Assembly: GCA_902520335.1 (NCBI GenBank)
Contig: CABYNS010000001.1
Coordinates: 1 to 64,000, forward strand
Source of the DNA: an uncultured Pelagibacteraceae bacterium
GTDB taxonomy: Bacteria; Pseudomonadota; Alphaproteobacteria; Pelagibacterales; Pelagibacteraceae
Direction: 5' to 3'
Length of the DNA stretch: 64,000 nt
In this document: one piece after another, positions 30,981 to 61,586 of the stretch
Position numbering within the stretch: position 1 is the stretch's first letter
How the letters are laid out: the number at the start of each line of letters is the position of its first letter
The notes under the pieces: model-generated
Seen by the model: the letters and a program-made list of their open reading frames with translations, nothing else
What the model was told of the DNA's origin: nothing
The model's database searches: none
Made by a program: the position numbers and the translations under genes

Positions 30981-31679
30981 TTAAATTTTATATAACAAAA
31001 ATTCCTCTTCTCCAGGATTAAAAAGAAATATCTTTTTCCACTTAATTTCATTTAATTTAGCTGATGTTTTTTCGCCTATACACATCAAATTAGTACTCAT
31101 CCAAAGACTTTCTAGCTGATTAAATTTTATAAACTTTAAAAGACTTGATGCGCTATTTTGTGAATAAACGTAAACCATATCAGGCATATCAAGTTTTAAC
31201 TTATTGATAAAATCATTATCAAATTTTTCATTATGTACAGTTTCATAGTTTATCAACCTCTTAACTTCATATCCCTCATTTTGCAGTTGATTATCAAGAT
31301 CCACTGAAATGTTTTCTCCACTTACATAAATTAATTTACCTTCTGTCTTATCAAAATTCTGTAATATTAATTCTTTTAAATTAAGAACATTTCCTTCTGC
31401 AGTAATTGTATTAGAAAAACCTTGACCTCTTGCTTCTTTTTCTGTTGCATTTCCTACACAAAAACATTTTATGTTTTTATCTAACCCATTTGAATTTAAA
31501 AATCTTACTGCATTAGAGCTTGTGAAAATAATACCTTTAAATTCTAAAAGATTTATTTTTTCATGAAGAATTTTTTTAATAGATAATAAAGGTAGATGTG
31601 AAACTTTATGACCAAGAGACTGAAACTTAATGATCATTTCAGAACAATCTTCTAGAGGTCTAGTTAATAAGATATGCAT
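30981..31679 (-). CDS. hemD: uroporphyrinogen-III synthase
   Basis: A 232-residue protein with the two-domain pattern of HemD: LLTRPLEDCSEM at the start, GIIFTSSNAVRFL near residue 55, KLIYVSGENISVDL and MVYVYSQNSASSLLKF, the last being the usual F-T-S-x-x-x-A equivalent. It cyclises hydroxymethylbilane to uroporphyrinogen III. Sequence conservation in this family is low, but its position 1 bp after hemC makes the call firm. Confidence 0.87.
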   Translation of the reverse strand: MHILLTRPLEDCSEMIIKFQSLGHKVSHLPLLSIKKILHEKINLLEFKGIIFTSSNAVRFLNSNGLDKNIKCFCVGNATEKEARGQGFSNTITAEGNVLNLKELILQNFDKTEGKLIYVSGENISVDLDNQLQNEGYEVKRLINYETVHNEKFDNDFINKLKLDMPDMVYVYSQNSASSLLKFIKFNQLESLWMSTNLMCIGEKTSAKLNEIKWKKIFLFNPGEEEFLLYKI

Positions 31680-31680
31680 T

Positions 31681-32598
31681 TTATTTCTTATAAGAGTTAT
31701 TCGATTTTATTTTTAAAATTTGACCTATTTCATTTCCAAGTTCTCTAAAATTTTCTGAACTGTCAGATTTTTTTTCATAAAATCTTTGTGAGCCATCTAA
31801 TGAAAAAAGCTCTGCTTCGACTGTAATTTTGTTTTCATCTATTTTAGAATGAATTCCAACTGCTGTTTCACAATCCCCCTCTAAAATTTTTAGAATATTT
31901 CTTTCAGCATGTGCTCTTTTATAAGTCTCTTTATGATTAATCTTTTTTAACATTGAGATCATGTCTTCATCATTTACTCTACACTGTATAGCAATTATTC
32001 CTTGCCCTGCACTTGGAATTATTTCCTCAATAGAAAAAATTTCTGAAATTTTATCCTCTAATTTTAAGTACTTTATACCAGCATAAGATAAAATTATCGC
32101 ATCATACTCACCATCCATTAATTTTTTTATCCTAGTGTCAACATTCCCTCTTATAAGTTTACAATTAAAATCTGGTCTAATTTTTTTAATTTGAAATTGT
32201 CGTCTGTAAGAAGATGTTCCAATAACAGCATTCTTTTTTAAGTCTTTAAATTTTTTATTCCCATTAATTATTACGATTTCTCTCGCATCAGTTCTCTCAA
32301 GAAATGTATCTGTTAAAAGGCCATTGGTCTCAATTGCTGGCATGTCTTTTAGTGCATGAACTGCTATGTCTATATTATTTTTTTGGAGCTCTTGTTCAAT
32401 ACTACTTGAAAATAAACCTTTGCCACCAACATCAGATAATCTGGTGTCTTGTATCTCATCCCCTTTGGTAGAAATTTTTTCAATATTTATATCCTGGTCA
32501 GTAAAAATGGTTGCTTCAATAATTTTCTCTTTTACTTTTTGTGCATATAATAATGCTAACTTACTTCCTCGAGATCCAATTGTTATTTTCTTTTTCAT
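31681..32598 (-). CDS. hemC: porphobilinogen deaminase (hydroxymethylbilane synthase)
   Basis: A 305-residue enzyme. IGSRGSKLALLYA at the N-terminus, AVHALKDMP (79-87), the dipyrromethane cofactor Cys243 in EGDCETAVGIH and the Arg-rich GTSSYRRQFQI are all present. It polymerises four porphobilinogens. It is divergent from tsaD with a 55 bp gap and leads the hemC-hemD operon; hemE, hemH and hemJ are at the other end of the window. Confidence 0.96.
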   Translation of the reverse strand: MKKKITIGSRGSKLALLYAQKVKEKIIEATIFTDQDINIEKISTKGDEIQDTRLSDVGGKGLFSSSIEQELQKNNIDIAVHALKDMPAIETNGLLTDTFLERTDAREIVIINGNKKFKDLKKNAVIGTSSYRRQFQIKKIRPDFNCKLIRGNVDTRIKKLMDGEYDAIILSYAGIKYLKLEDKISEIFSIEEIIPSAGQGIIAIQCRVNDEDMISMLKKINHKETYKRAHAERNILKILEGDCETAVGIHSKIDENKITVEAELFSLDGSQRFYEKKSDSSENFRELGNEIGQILKIKSNNSYKK

Positions 32599-32653
32599 AA
32601 AAAAATCATTTCTTACTTGTATTGGGATTGTACAATTATTAAAAACTATTTGT

Positions 32654-33727
32654 ATGAATAAAAAGCCCTTAATTCTTGGAATAGAAACTAGTTGTGATGA
32701 AACTGCAGCATCTTTAATTTCAGAAAATGAGCGAGGAATACCAATAATTCTCTCTAATATTATTTCTAGCCAAACAGAAGTGCATAAAGAATTTGGTGGA
32801 GTTGTTCCTGAACTTGCTGCCCGATCCCATTTAGAAAAAATTGATTTGATTGTTCAAAAGGCTTTGGATGAAAGTGGAAAAAAAATAGACGAAATAGATG
32901 CAGTTGCTGCAACAGCCGGGCCGGGACTAGTTGTTTGTTTATCAGTTGGATTAAGTTTTGGTAAAACTTTCGCAAATTTAATTAAAAAACCATTTATTGC
33001 CATAAATCATTTAGAGGGCCACGCTTTAAGTCCAAAAATTAATTCAGGGTTGAATTACCCGTATTTATTTTTATTAATTTCAGGTGGACACTCACAATTT
33101 TTAAATGTTAAAGGACTTGGAAATTATAAAAGATTGGGCACTACTATAGATGATGCCTTAGGAGAAGCATTTGATAAAACTGCAAAATTATTAGGGATAG
33201 AATTTCCAGGAGGACCCAAAATTGAAGTTTTTGCTGATAAAGGAAATCCTGAAAGATATGAGCTACCAAAACCAATTATTAATAGAGGGGGGTGCAATCT
33301 GTCCTTTGCTGGTTTGAAGACAGCTGTCTTAAAAATATCAAAAAAAATAAAATCAGAACAAGATAGATTTGATTTGGCAGCTTCTTTTCAAAAAACTATA
33401 ATAGAAATCCTCTATAAGAAAACAAAAATTGCCTTTTTAGAGTTCGAAAAACAAAATAACTTGGGAAAAAAAATTTTTGTTGTCGCTGGTGGTGTTGCAG
33501 CTAACAAAAAAATTAGATTAATGTTAATTAATCTATGTAGAGAAAAAAGTTATGAAAGCATATTTCCTCCAATAGAACTATGTGGTGATAATGCTGCAAT
33601 GATAGGAATGGTAGGTTTAGAAAAATTTAAATTAAAACAATTCAATCATTTAAATTATCCAGCAAAACCAAGATGGCCATTAGATGAAAACGCTAATTTT
33701 TTAAAGGGAGCAGGAGTAAAATTATAA
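32654..33727 (+). CDS. tsaD: tRNA threonylcarbamoyladenosine transferase subunit
   Basis: A 357-residue ASKHA-fold protein starting MNKKPLILGIETSCDETA; a longer in-frame extension to 32366 is antisense to hemC and is not used. The iron-binding motif NHLEGHALSP has His119 and His123, and SGGHSQF, GRxGDDAxGEAFDK-like IDDALGEAFDKTAK and FAGLKTAV follow. TsaD completes N6-threonylcarbamoyladenosine at A37 of ANN-decoding tRNAs. Its stop overlaps the ATG of the EVE gene by one base. Confidence 0.96.
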   Translation: MNKKPLILGIETSCDETAASLISENERGIPIILSNIISSQTEVHKEFGGVVPELAARSHLEKIDLIVQKALDESGKKIDEIDAVAATAGPGLVVCLSVGLSFGKTFANLIKKPFIAINHLEGHALSPKINSGLNYPYLFLLISGGHSQFLNVKGLGNYKRLGTTIDDALGEAFDKTAKLLGIEFPGGPKIEVFADKGNPERYELPKPIINRGGCNLSFAGLKTAVLKISKKIKSEQDRFDLAASFQKTIIEILYKKTKIAFLEFEKQNNLGKKIFVVAGGVAANKKIRLMLINLCREKSYESIFPPIELCGDNAAMIGMVGLEKFKLKQFNHLNYPAKPRWPLDENANFLKGAGVKL

Positions 33728-58904: not shown

Positions 58905-59485
58905 TTATAATTATCTAAATATTTTTTAATTTTTTCAATCGGGAGTCCCATTATTGTATTTTTATTTCCGTCGATACTTGAGAATAAATCTTTTCCCTCG
59001 CCTTCTATTTGATAAACATTATAAGCATATAAAGCCTCATCAGAAATTTTAGCTAAGTAATTTTTAAGCTCATCATCTTTCATTTTTTTCATTGTCAAAG
59101 TTGCCCTATCTGTATGATTCCATACCATAGATCCATTTTTAGAGATACATACTGAACTAATTAAATAATGTTTTTTGCCATTAAGTTTTCTTAAAATTTC
59201 TAAAGCTTCTTCTCTATTGTCCGGTTTTGATATTAGTTCTCCGTTCAAATCGATGACACTATCAGCGCCTAAAACTAAATTATCACTATATTTCCCGCTT
59301 ATCTTGTTGGCTTTTAATTCAGCTAAATTTTTGGATATTATCTCTGGTGAAGCTTCTTCTTTTAATAAACTTGATTTTACAACATCTTCATCAACATTTG
59401 ATGGTCTAACTTCATTCAAAATATTGTATTCATCAAGAATTTTCTTTCTAACTTTGCTTTGAGAAGCAAGAATAATTTTAAGCAT
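58901..59485 (-). CDS. maf: Maf-like nucleotide pyrophosphatase
   Basis: A 194-residue protein with ILASQSKVRKKILDE (the SxxR motif), LVLGADSVIDLNGELISKP, the central KxxDxxRA replaced by REEALEILRKLNGKKHYLISSV and QIEGEGKDLFSSIDGNKNTIMGLPI. Maf proteins hydrolyse modified or canonical nucleoside triphosphates. Overlaps ppsR by 8 bp and aroE by 4 bp. Confidence 0.92.
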   Translation of the reverse strand: MLKIILASQSKVRKKILDEYNILNEVRPSNVDEDVVKSSLLKEEASPEIISKNLAELKANKISGKYSDNLVLGADSVIDLNGELISKPDNREEALEILRKLNGKKHYLISSVCISKNGSMVWNHTDRATLTMKKMKDDELKNYLAKISDEALYAYNVYQIEGEGKDLFSSIDGNKNTIMGLPIEKIKKYLDNYK

Positions 59486-60302
59486 TTTCTTTAAAAATTT
59501 CGTATATTTTAATTACTGAAGCTGCCGTTTCTTCTACAGATTTTCTAGTTACATCAATTGATGGCCATTTATATTTTTTAAAGGTATTTTTTGCCATGTC
59601 CACTTCCTTTTTTATCTGTTCTAAATCAGTGTAAAGTTTATTGGTATTTTCCTTAAGAGAGTTCATTCTGTTTTTTCTTATTTCTACTAACCTTTCTGGT
59701 TCGGTGTTTAATCCCACAACACATGAAATTTTTGGATTTTTTTTTAAAATCTCTGGAATAGAATCTTCTGTTATTAAGGGAATGTTGGATGTCTTTAGAC
59801 CTTTATTTGCTAAAAAAACAGCTGTAGGAGTTTTGCTTGTTCTACTAACTCCTAATAAAATTACATCAGATTGTTTTATTTCTTTTACAAGATTGCCGTC
59901 ATCATGATTCATTGTAAATTGAATCGCCTCAATTCTTTTATAGTAGTCTTCATCCAGAGCATATTGACCACTTGGTTGGTGTGAGGCTTTTTGGTTTAAA
60001 AGTTTAGAAAAACTTAATATTAGATCACCCAACACTCCAAAGCATGGAATTTTTTTCATATCACTATTTTTGGCAAGATATTTTGCTAAGCTACTGTCGA
60101 CAATGGAATATAAAATTATGGAATTTTTTTCTTGCTCTGCGTTTTCTAAAATTTTTAGTATCTGATTTTCTGTCCTAGTAAAGGAATAAGTGTGTACTTT
60201 GTAATTTATATTTTTAAATTGAGCTTTAATAGCTATAAAAATACGATCCAAAGTTTCACCAGTTGCATCTGATATTAAATAAATTTGGTATAAATTACTC
60301 AT
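59478..60302 (-). CDS. ppsR: pyruvate,phosphate/water dikinase regulatory protein
   Basis: A 274-residue DUF299 kinase/phosphotransferase: IYLISDATGETLDRIF, HQPSGQYALDEDYYKRIEAIQFTMNHDDG and the P-loop GVSRTSKTPTAVFLANKG. It reversibly phosphorylates a Thr of the dikinase PpdK or PpsA. It is the first gene left of the origin candidate, in the conserved place next to hemE across the origin gap. Confidence 0.93.
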   Translation of the reverse strand: MSNLYQIYLISDATGETLDRIFIAIKAQFKNINYKVHTYSFTRTENQILKILENAEQEKNSIILYSIVDSSLAKYLAKNSDMKKIPCFGVLGDLILSFSKLLNQKASHQPSGQYALDEDYYKRIEAIQFTMNHDDGNLVKEIKQSDVILLGVSRTSKTPTAVFLANKGLKTSNIPLITEDSIPEILKKNPKISCVVGLNTEPERLVEIRKNRMNSLKENTNKLYTDLEQIKKEVDMAKNTFKKYKWPSIDVTRKSVEETAASVIKIYEIFKENA

Positions 60303-60584
60303 GTATAAAATGTGTATAAATTTGTATTATATTTATCATATTGGATATTTTTCATAATTTTAAATTTACGCTGTAAAACAATACTTTTATTAACAATATC
60401 AAACATGTTAAAATCTTTAATGGTTATTTAATGTATTTAGTTAATAAGCTTCAATTTTGCGTATATATTTAATAAAATTTAAGACTTAAATGTTAATAAA
60501 TTGTTTATAAAATGTTCACTAAATTTAATCATCAATATTCACAGACTATACTAATATTACTACTAATTATATTTAATTATTAAT
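60303..60584. other. candidate chromosomal origin of replication (oriC), AT-rich divergent gap between ppsR and hemE
   Basis: A 282 bp gap without a gene, very rich in A and T even for this genome. It holds one perfect DnaA-box match, TGTGTATAA (60311-60319). Three one-mismatch boxes are TGTTAATAA (60491-60499), TGTTTATAA (60502-60510) and ATATTCACA (60535-60543). The flanking order (rho, hemJ, hemH, hemE on one side; ppsR, maf, aroE, coaE, dnaQ on the other, transcribed away from the gap) matches the hemE-linked origins of Caulobacter and Rickettsia. It also must hold the promoters of ppsR and hemE. Confidence 0.6.
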
Positions 60585-61586
60585 ATGTCTCCAATTGAAG
60601 AAGTAATAATAAATAAAAAAAGTGATATTAATCCGATTTGGATTATGAGACAAGCTGGAAGGTATTTACCTGAGTTTAGAGAAATAAGAAAACAAAATCC
60701 AGATTTTATCAAACTTTGTCTCAATGAAAAATTATCTAGTGAAATTACTTTGCAACCCTTAAAAAGATTTAATTTAGATGCAGCAATAATTTTCTCTGAT
60801 ATTTTAATGTTACCATACGGTTTAAATCAAAATGTTGAATTTAAAAAAAATATAGGTCCATTACTCGGCAATCTTGATTTAGAAAAAATATCTAATGTAG
60901 AAGAAGTTGACTTCGTTGAAAAACTTTCAGCTGTTTATAAATTAATTGAATTAGTTAGTAATTCGCAACACACTAAAAACAAAACTACCATAGGTTTTAT
61001 AGGAGCACCTTGGACTTTATTGGTATATATGTTAAATAAAAAATCGCCAAAATTAAATTTAAATGATAATTTTTATGAAGATAAATATTTAATTGATAAA
61101 GTTTTAAAAATTTTAGACAAATTTTTAAAAATACATATTAAAAATCAAATTGATAGTGGAGCTCAAATAATTCAAATTTTTGATAGTTGGGCCGGGTTAT
61201 TAAAAGAAAAAGATTTATCTTATTATATATATAATCCTACATTAAGTTTGGTTAATTATGTTAAATCGTTAAACGTGCCTGTTATTTGTTTCCCGAGAGG
61301 AATAAAAAATTATAAAGATTATTGTGAAATCGTTAAACCAGATACAATTTGTATTGACTATGAGGTTGATCCAATAAAGATTAATAAAGAAATTAAAATT
61401 CCTGTGCAAGGCGGGATGGATCCAAAAGTTTTACTTTCTGATAAAGAAAACTTAAAAAAGGAGGCAATAAAATATTTGGATATATTTAAAGATCACCCAT
61501 ATATATTTAATTTAGGACATGGTATTTTGCCAGAAACAGATCCAAATATGATGGATTATTTGGTGAAAACTGTGAAAGATTATTAA
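60585..61586 (+). CDS. hemE: uroporphyrinogen decarboxylase
   Basis: A 333-residue enzyme with WIMRQAGRYLPEFREIR at residues 21-37, the AIIFSDILMLPYGLN segment with the catalytic Asp, GFIGAPWTLLVYML and FNLGHGILPETDPN at the end. It decarboxylates uroporphyrinogen III to coproporphyrinogen III. It shares one base with hemH. It is the first gene right of the origin candidate. Confidence 0.97.
   Translation: MSPIEEVIINKKSDINPIWIMRQAGRYLPEFREIRKQNPDFIKLCLNEKLSSEITLQPLKRFNLDAAIIFSDILMLPYGLNQNVEFKKNIGPLLGNLDLEKISNVEEVDFVEKLSAVYKLIELVSNSQHTKNKTTIGFIGAPWTLLVYMLNKKSPKLNLNDNFYEDKYLIDKVLKILDKFLKIHIKNQIDSGAQIIQIFDSWAGLLKEKDLSYYIYNPTLSLVNYVKSLNVPVICFPRGIKNYKDYCEIVKPDTICIDYEVDPIKINKEIKIPVQGGMDPKVLLSDKENLKKEAIKYLDIFKDHPYIFNLGHGILPETDPNMMDYLVKTVKDY

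Follow-up and report, generated by a model that had tools for sequence, protein, structure and literature searches.

The 282-bp gap that separates ppsR from hemE in a Pelagibacteraceae (SAR11) genome is, we propose, the origin of chromosome replication, of the hemE-linked kind (probability of about 0.92). The gap lies in the window, by which we mean the whole stretch of 64,000 bp that was analyzed, from a draft genome of 1,056,516 bases in 27 contigs that is 90% complete. Among the matches listed, the named genomes nearest to it by ppsR come from uncultured Pelagibacteraceae, with the top match at 97%. An earlier reading of the window from its letters (the sequence-only reading) had proposed this origin with gene order as the strongest argument; the comparative evidence presented here now exceeds gene order alone.

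The ppsR-hemE gap and its neighbors

The two boundary genes, ppsR (encoding a DUF299/COG1806 kinase-PPPase) and hemE, are both transcribed away from the gap, and the sequence-only reading had placed the gap between them correctly (Table 1). NCBIfam gene names give the order dnaQ-coaE-aroE-maf-ppsR before the gap and hemE-hemH-hemJ after it. The latter are followed by a rho-like reading frame. PpsR passes the subfamily model PRK05339 and falls below the stricter equivalog cutoff. The gap is very AT-rich, as had been claimed, with 16% GC compared with 25 to 32% in the surrounding 2-kb windows.

According to PMC1914354, the Caulobacter origin was mapped experimentally between hemE and the COG1806 gene (ppsR/DUF299), and the Rickettsia prowazekii origin lies between the same two genes, which is the order that the sequence-only reading had named for its divergent flanking genes. 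Several of the features by which that paper describes hemE-linked origins were found here as well: the gap stands beside hemE and COG1806, it contains multiple DnaA boxes of the TTATNCACA type, its AT content is above that of its surroundings, and the GC skew shifts, the last being taken from samples of four relatives, two of which peak elsewhere.

The hemE search of the family found the gene in 122 of 147 genomes. We assembled 70 family loci, 30 from this search and 40 as fetched stretches, two of which (L072 and L073) were fetched at ppsR. ppsR is present in 65 of the loci, with a divergent hemE in 63 and without it in 2; four other loci have hemE away from ppsR, and one (L032) stops at a contig end without ppsR. 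Excluded before counting were L079 (same genome as L030), L032, and L074 to L077 (no ppsR in the stretch), leaving 64 gaps. A second set consists of the gaps of 80 named relatives. It includes L261 (CAJPUR010000031.1), filed under a Flavobacteriaceae metagenome-assembled genome (MAG), in which a ppsR 81% identical to the SAR11 one faces hemE across the gap; this is probably a misbinned contig.

In 14 of 16 compared genomes, ppsR adjoins hemE, as it does at 63 of the 68 loci that were fetched by way of hemE (a tally in which one genome appears twice). The gap is 258 to 297 bp long in all 62 distinct hemE-type family gaps, at ppsR identities down to 48%. At G040:C1:358209-359182 and G131:C5:73513-74509, hemE is found in two overlapping pieces, one with internal stop codons, for which a frameshift, a pseudogene, or a sequencing error could account.

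Table 1. Features of the putative origin and its boundary genes (positions in the window; fractions give the gaps with at most one mismatch to TTATNNACA, in the 64 family gaps and then in the 80 named relatives)
Feature	Position	Strand	Basis or conservation
ppsR (DUF299/COG1806 kinase-PPPase), boundary gene	59478..60302	-	
Putative oriC, ppsR-hemE intergenic gap	60303..60584	.	Sequence and conserved length
DnaA box TGTGTATAA (exact TTATNCACA)	60311..60319	-	55/64, 73/80
DnaA box TTATTAACA	60387..60395	+	34/64, 80/80
Box site, departed in the window (TGTTAAAAT)	60406..60414	-	Consensus of the 80 is TGTGTATAA; 13/64, 43/80 (weak across the family)
DnaA box TGTTAATAA, first of three at 11-bp steps	60491..60499	-	29/64, 79/80
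DnaA box TGTTTATAA, second of three at 11-bp steps	60502..60510	-	39/64, 76/80
Box site, departed in the window (TGTTCACTA)	60513..60521	-	Consensus of the 80 is TGTTTATAA; 36/64, 48/80
DnaA box ATATTCACA of the candidate unwinding element	60535..60543	+	43/64, 54/80
Spacer of 4 bp, GACT, box to triplets	60544..60547	+	Sequence and family alignment
Five conserved DnaA-trio-like NTA triplets, ATA CTA ATA TTA CTA	60548..60562	+	Complement reads 3'-NAT-5'
A/T-only stretch of 21 bp abutting the hemE start	60564..60584	.	Window sequence
hemE, boundary gene	60585..61586	+	

DnaA boxes

Matches to TTATNCACA with at most one mismatch number five in the window gap (one exact, four with one mismatch) versus 1.02 expected, a count reached in 1 of 500 dinucleotide shuffles. 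The sequence-only reading had named the exact box at 60311-60319, which is indeed there, and three one-mismatch boxes that we also find, at 60491-60499, 60502-60510, and 60535-60543; it had missed a fourth at 60387-60395. It had cautioned that single box matches can arise by chance in an AT-rich genome; the lone exact TTATNCACA box was matched by 19 of the 500 shuffles. The pattern TTATNNACA, which was picked after the alignment had been seen, occurs exactly four times in the window gap versus 0.45 expected, and none of the 500 shuffles was as high. With one mismatch allowed, it occurs 7 times versus 6.26 expected, which is no excess.

Conservation of the boxes across SAR11 gaps, which had been set as a test of the proposal, was borne out: over the 64 family gaps, TTATNNACA occurs 171 times versus 21.5 expected (maximum of 35 in 40 shuffles) and is present in 62 of them, and over the 80 named relatives it occurs 282 times versus 33.1 expected. 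Exact TTATNCACA is also in excess (24 versus 2.0 and 63 versus 2.7, respectively), with only 19 of the 64 and 47 of the 80 gaps carrying one. The gap itself is the densest TTATNNACA cluster, with four per 282 bp. This is so in the window and also in the relatives G003, G063, G009, and G005, each sampled over about 400 kb, the gap locus having been added to three of these four samples; in G009, one of the four boxes overlaps the ppsR start.

The gap holds seven box sites, two of them departed in the window (Table 1). At the last, 60535-60543, the commonest sequence is TTATTAACA in the 64 family gaps and TTATTCACA in the 80 named relatives, and the AC at 60541-60542 is invariant across the 64. 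Among the 80 close relatives, conservation is a weak test: the boxes are only slightly above the rest of the gap (0.865 versus 0.811), and 254 of 5,000 rotations were as high. A stretch at 60443-60472, starting AATAAGCTTCAATTTTGCG, is conserved like the boxes in these 80, and no pattern applied here for boxes, CtrA, or IHF matches it.

A candidate unwinding element

The box, spacer, and triplets at 60535-60562 match the basal unwinding system (BUS), the element made of a DnaA box and DnaA-trios by which other origins are unwound, and the A/T-only stretch at 60564-60584 is the likely DNA-unwinding region. PMC8287927 gives the BUS three parts: a DnaA box, a spacer of at most 16 bp, and at least three trios 3'-NAN-5'. 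Here, the spacer is 4 bp and five triplets are conserved. The BUS of Bacillus subtilis and other origins shares with the SAR11 element the box, the short spacer, and at least three triplets with a middle A on the bound strand. The SAR11 element is a candidate identified by its sequence, and Pelagibacter is not mentioned in the main text of that paper. A sixth triplet, CTA at 60563-60565, is present in the window and is not conserved.

At least three of the five NTA triplets are in frame in 59 of the 64 family gaps and 79 of the 80 named relatives, the frame having been read from the same alignments that were then counted; in frames shifted by -2, -1, +1, or +2, the number is 0 in both sets. 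At least three NTA triplets follow a box in 32 of the 64 family gaps, compared with 3.5 in shuffles (maximum of 8). The loose published BUS pattern was rejected as a discriminator, since it fits 61 of the 64 gaps yet also 34.2 of 64 shuffles. Because the DNA is so AT-rich, the literal pattern does not discriminate, whereas the fixed triplet frame does.

Relatives without hemE at the locus

The gap might instead serve ppsR and hemE as a shared, divergent promoter, its DnaA boxes acting only in the regulation of these genes. The two genes do diverge from it, TATACT at 60547-60552 could serve as a -10 element, and origin and promoter functions may overlap. We nonetheless consider a promoter-only role improbable. 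Triplets fixed in one frame correspond to no promoter feature that we know of, the symmetry center of skew and gene strand lies near the gap (see below), and the block of box and triplets persists where hemE has gone.

That last point comes from G009 and G022. In these genomes (L072 of G009, 2330-2682; L073 of G022, 2150-2502), ppsR is followed by a rho-like gene, with no frame for hemE, hemH, or hemJ in between. Each has a hemE match elsewhere in the genome at about 30% identity, which suggests that hemE was relocated or replaced. The block is still present between ppsR and the rho-like gene. A block profile built without G009 and G022 scores their ppsR-side gaps at 36.1 and 35.3 bits, and its best other score in G009 is 6.8 bits (remaining 19 sampled stretches, 380 kb). 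When built without the window's genus, the profile scores the window site at 30.8 versus 3.4 for the next place, and in the G003 sample the values are 28.7 and 9.9. As the block stays where hemE has left the locus, it is independent of hemE and is not just the hemE promoter. The hemE-less relatives thus amount to a natural deletion that parts the origin from a hemE promoter function.

GC skew and gene strand

Uncorrected GC skew in G003 was driven by gene strand, and its noise was too high. Therefore, we fitted third-position G versus C with gene strand as a covariate in four single-contig relatives, each sampled as 20 stretches of 20 kb. The corrected skew at the gap has z values of 2.04 in G003, 3.76 in G063, 3.35 in G009, and 6.14 in G005. 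Pooled, z is 7.64 at the gap; among 40 rotations the maximum, 7.82, falls one step earlier, about 30 kb away. The pooled leading-strand gene share, at 0.634, is highest at the gap. The resolution is about 30 to 60 kb at best, and the gap served as the anchor for three of the four samplings.

The sequence-only reading had named a full-genome GC-skew minimum at the gap as a check on its proposal. The pooled samples are at or next to their maximum there, though two of the four taken singly peak elsewhere: the best corrected position in G003 is 210 kb away (z of 2.6 versus 2.0), with the raw skew peak 150 kb off, and the corrected peak in G005 is 87 kb away (6.4 versus 6.1). For G009, the peaks of both raw skew and gene share lie 30 kb from the gap. 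Within the window, cumulative GC skew has a local low at the gap (-2.13) and is lower still at 31001-33000 (-2.47). A search for a dif-like terminus site with at most three mismatches gave none in the 16 genomes searched.

As in many other bacteria, the origin might adjoin dnaA, which is about 62 kb from the gap in the window's genome, a distance at which skew cannot distinguish them sharply. The two sites are tied in raw skew in G003 (0.038), where dnaA has a leading-gene share of 0.629 and the gap one of 0.627. In every one of the four genomes, corrected skew at dnaA nevertheless falls below its value at the gap (1.45, 2.65, 2.25, and 5.89 in the order given above), and the 3.5-kb dnaA locus, scanned in the window's genome alone, contains no TTATNNACA. 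We regard an origin at dnaA as very improbable. A last reading, to which we give almost no weight, takes the boxes and triplets for chance matches such as an AT-rich gap might produce: shuffled DNA does at times yield a lone exact box, and it yields the one-mismatch TTATNNACA count, but it does not reach the exact TTATNNACA counts in the window and the 64 gaps, and the triplet frame is conserved.

Regulators and methylation sites

Sites for CtrA and IHF are at most modestly enriched. The CtrA-type site TTAA-N7-TTAA occurs 29 times versus 17.1 in the 64 family gaps, a count that none of 200 shuffles reached, and 22 times versus 22.2 in the 80. It begins at 15 different positions, of which the commonest, 60313, is inside the DnaA box at 60311-60319 and is used in 7 of the 64. 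The one exact CtrA-type site in the window gap, at 60417-60431, was set aside: it falls in the part of the gap least conserved in close relatives, and a site starts there in 2 of the 64 gaps. The IHF site WATCAN5WTR is absent from the window gap; such sites number 30 versus 20.6 in the 64 gaps (4 of 200 as high) and 32 versus 28.7 in the 80 (56 of 200).

The genome encodes two IHF/HU-family proteins (by Pfam) and, in this 90% complete draft, four OmpR-type regulators, one of which passes PhoB. None of the four was identified as CtrA, whose model gave 123 and 28 bits among the matches listed, with a cutoff of 350. The gene may be missing from the draft; the result agrees with PMC2877005, which reports Pelagibacter as being without a ctrA ortholog.

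GANTC is depleted, with 2 occurrences versus 9.4 in the 64 gaps (1 of 200 shuffles as low) and 1 versus 7.3 in the 80 (0 of 200 as low). This depletion coexists with a CcrM-like methylase gene in the genome, which scores 579 bits to the CcrM model, below the cutoff of 830; PMC3973325, in wording that is ambiguous, credits SAR11 with a CcrM homolog. A gradient of GANTC methylation along Pelagibacter chromosomes is described in PMC9516812, where the ori of a MAG was placed by GC skew; the ppsR-hemE gap is not named as ori in the parts of that paper examined.

Comparison with hemE-linked alphaproteobacterial origins

The SAR11 gap would be a new member of the hemE-linked alphaproteobacterial origins, in which the anatomy of box and triplets is newly resolved. 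It shares with the Caulobacter crescentus Cori and with the hemE-linked origins predicted in Rickettsia, Wolbachia, and relatives a location beside hemE, a high AT content, and several DnaA boxes, and its ppsR neighbor (COG1806) is common to the Caulobacter and Rickettsia origins. It differs from the Cori type in being shorter (282 bp versus over 400 bp), in that many of its boxes read TTATTAACA, and in its CtrA sites, which have no fixed place, the IHF signal being likewise weak. CtrA sites are dispensable in several genera according to PMC1914354.

In other Alphaproteobacteria, we examined the ppsR loci of the best 30 of 100 matching genomes (143 searched), and all 30 have a divergent hemE. 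A crude pattern, in which a box is followed by G[GA] and C[TA]A[CT] motifs and which faces hemE as the SAR11 element does, was found at 8 of the 30, a count made without a shuffle control; six of these elements are 77 to 136 bp and two about 400 bp from hemE. The other 22 loci gave no match to this pattern. The gaps in these Alphaproteobacteria have a higher GC content and are longer (329 to 1,067 bp) than the SAR11 gap. Among the papers listed by literature searches, none was recognized as describing the SAR11 origin; databases such as DoriC may hold a prediction.

Proposed mechanism and implications

The SAR11 DnaA keeps the domain IV motifs PRQ and RDHTT, as judged by alignment to a solved DnaA. 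We suggest that DnaA binds the TTATNNACA boxes in the gap and that an oligomer would assemble from the box at 60535-60543 onto the strand opposite the NTA triplets, which reads 3'-NAT-5'. The oligomer would separate the two strands in the direction of hemE and so open the A/T-only DNA, where the helicase would be loaded and bidirectional replication would start. Each of these steps, from DnaA binding through unwinding and helicase loading to firing at the gap, is predicted from the layout of the sequence.

SAR11 are among the most abundant bacterial groups in the ocean. An origin placed at base level offers a fixed reference for peak-to-trough growth estimates, which is useful because the weak, largely gene-strand-driven GC skew locates the origin poorly, and the gap supplies a short DNA for testing SAR11 DnaA. 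More tentatively, and at less than even odds, the SAR11 origin may be a stripped-down alphaproteobacterial type run mainly by DnaA, with no CtrA control, no fixed CtrA site, GANTC kept out, and TTATTAACA-type boxes phased at 11 bp feeding the BUS. If this is true, the timing of initiation in these bacteria would rest mainly on the supply of DnaA.
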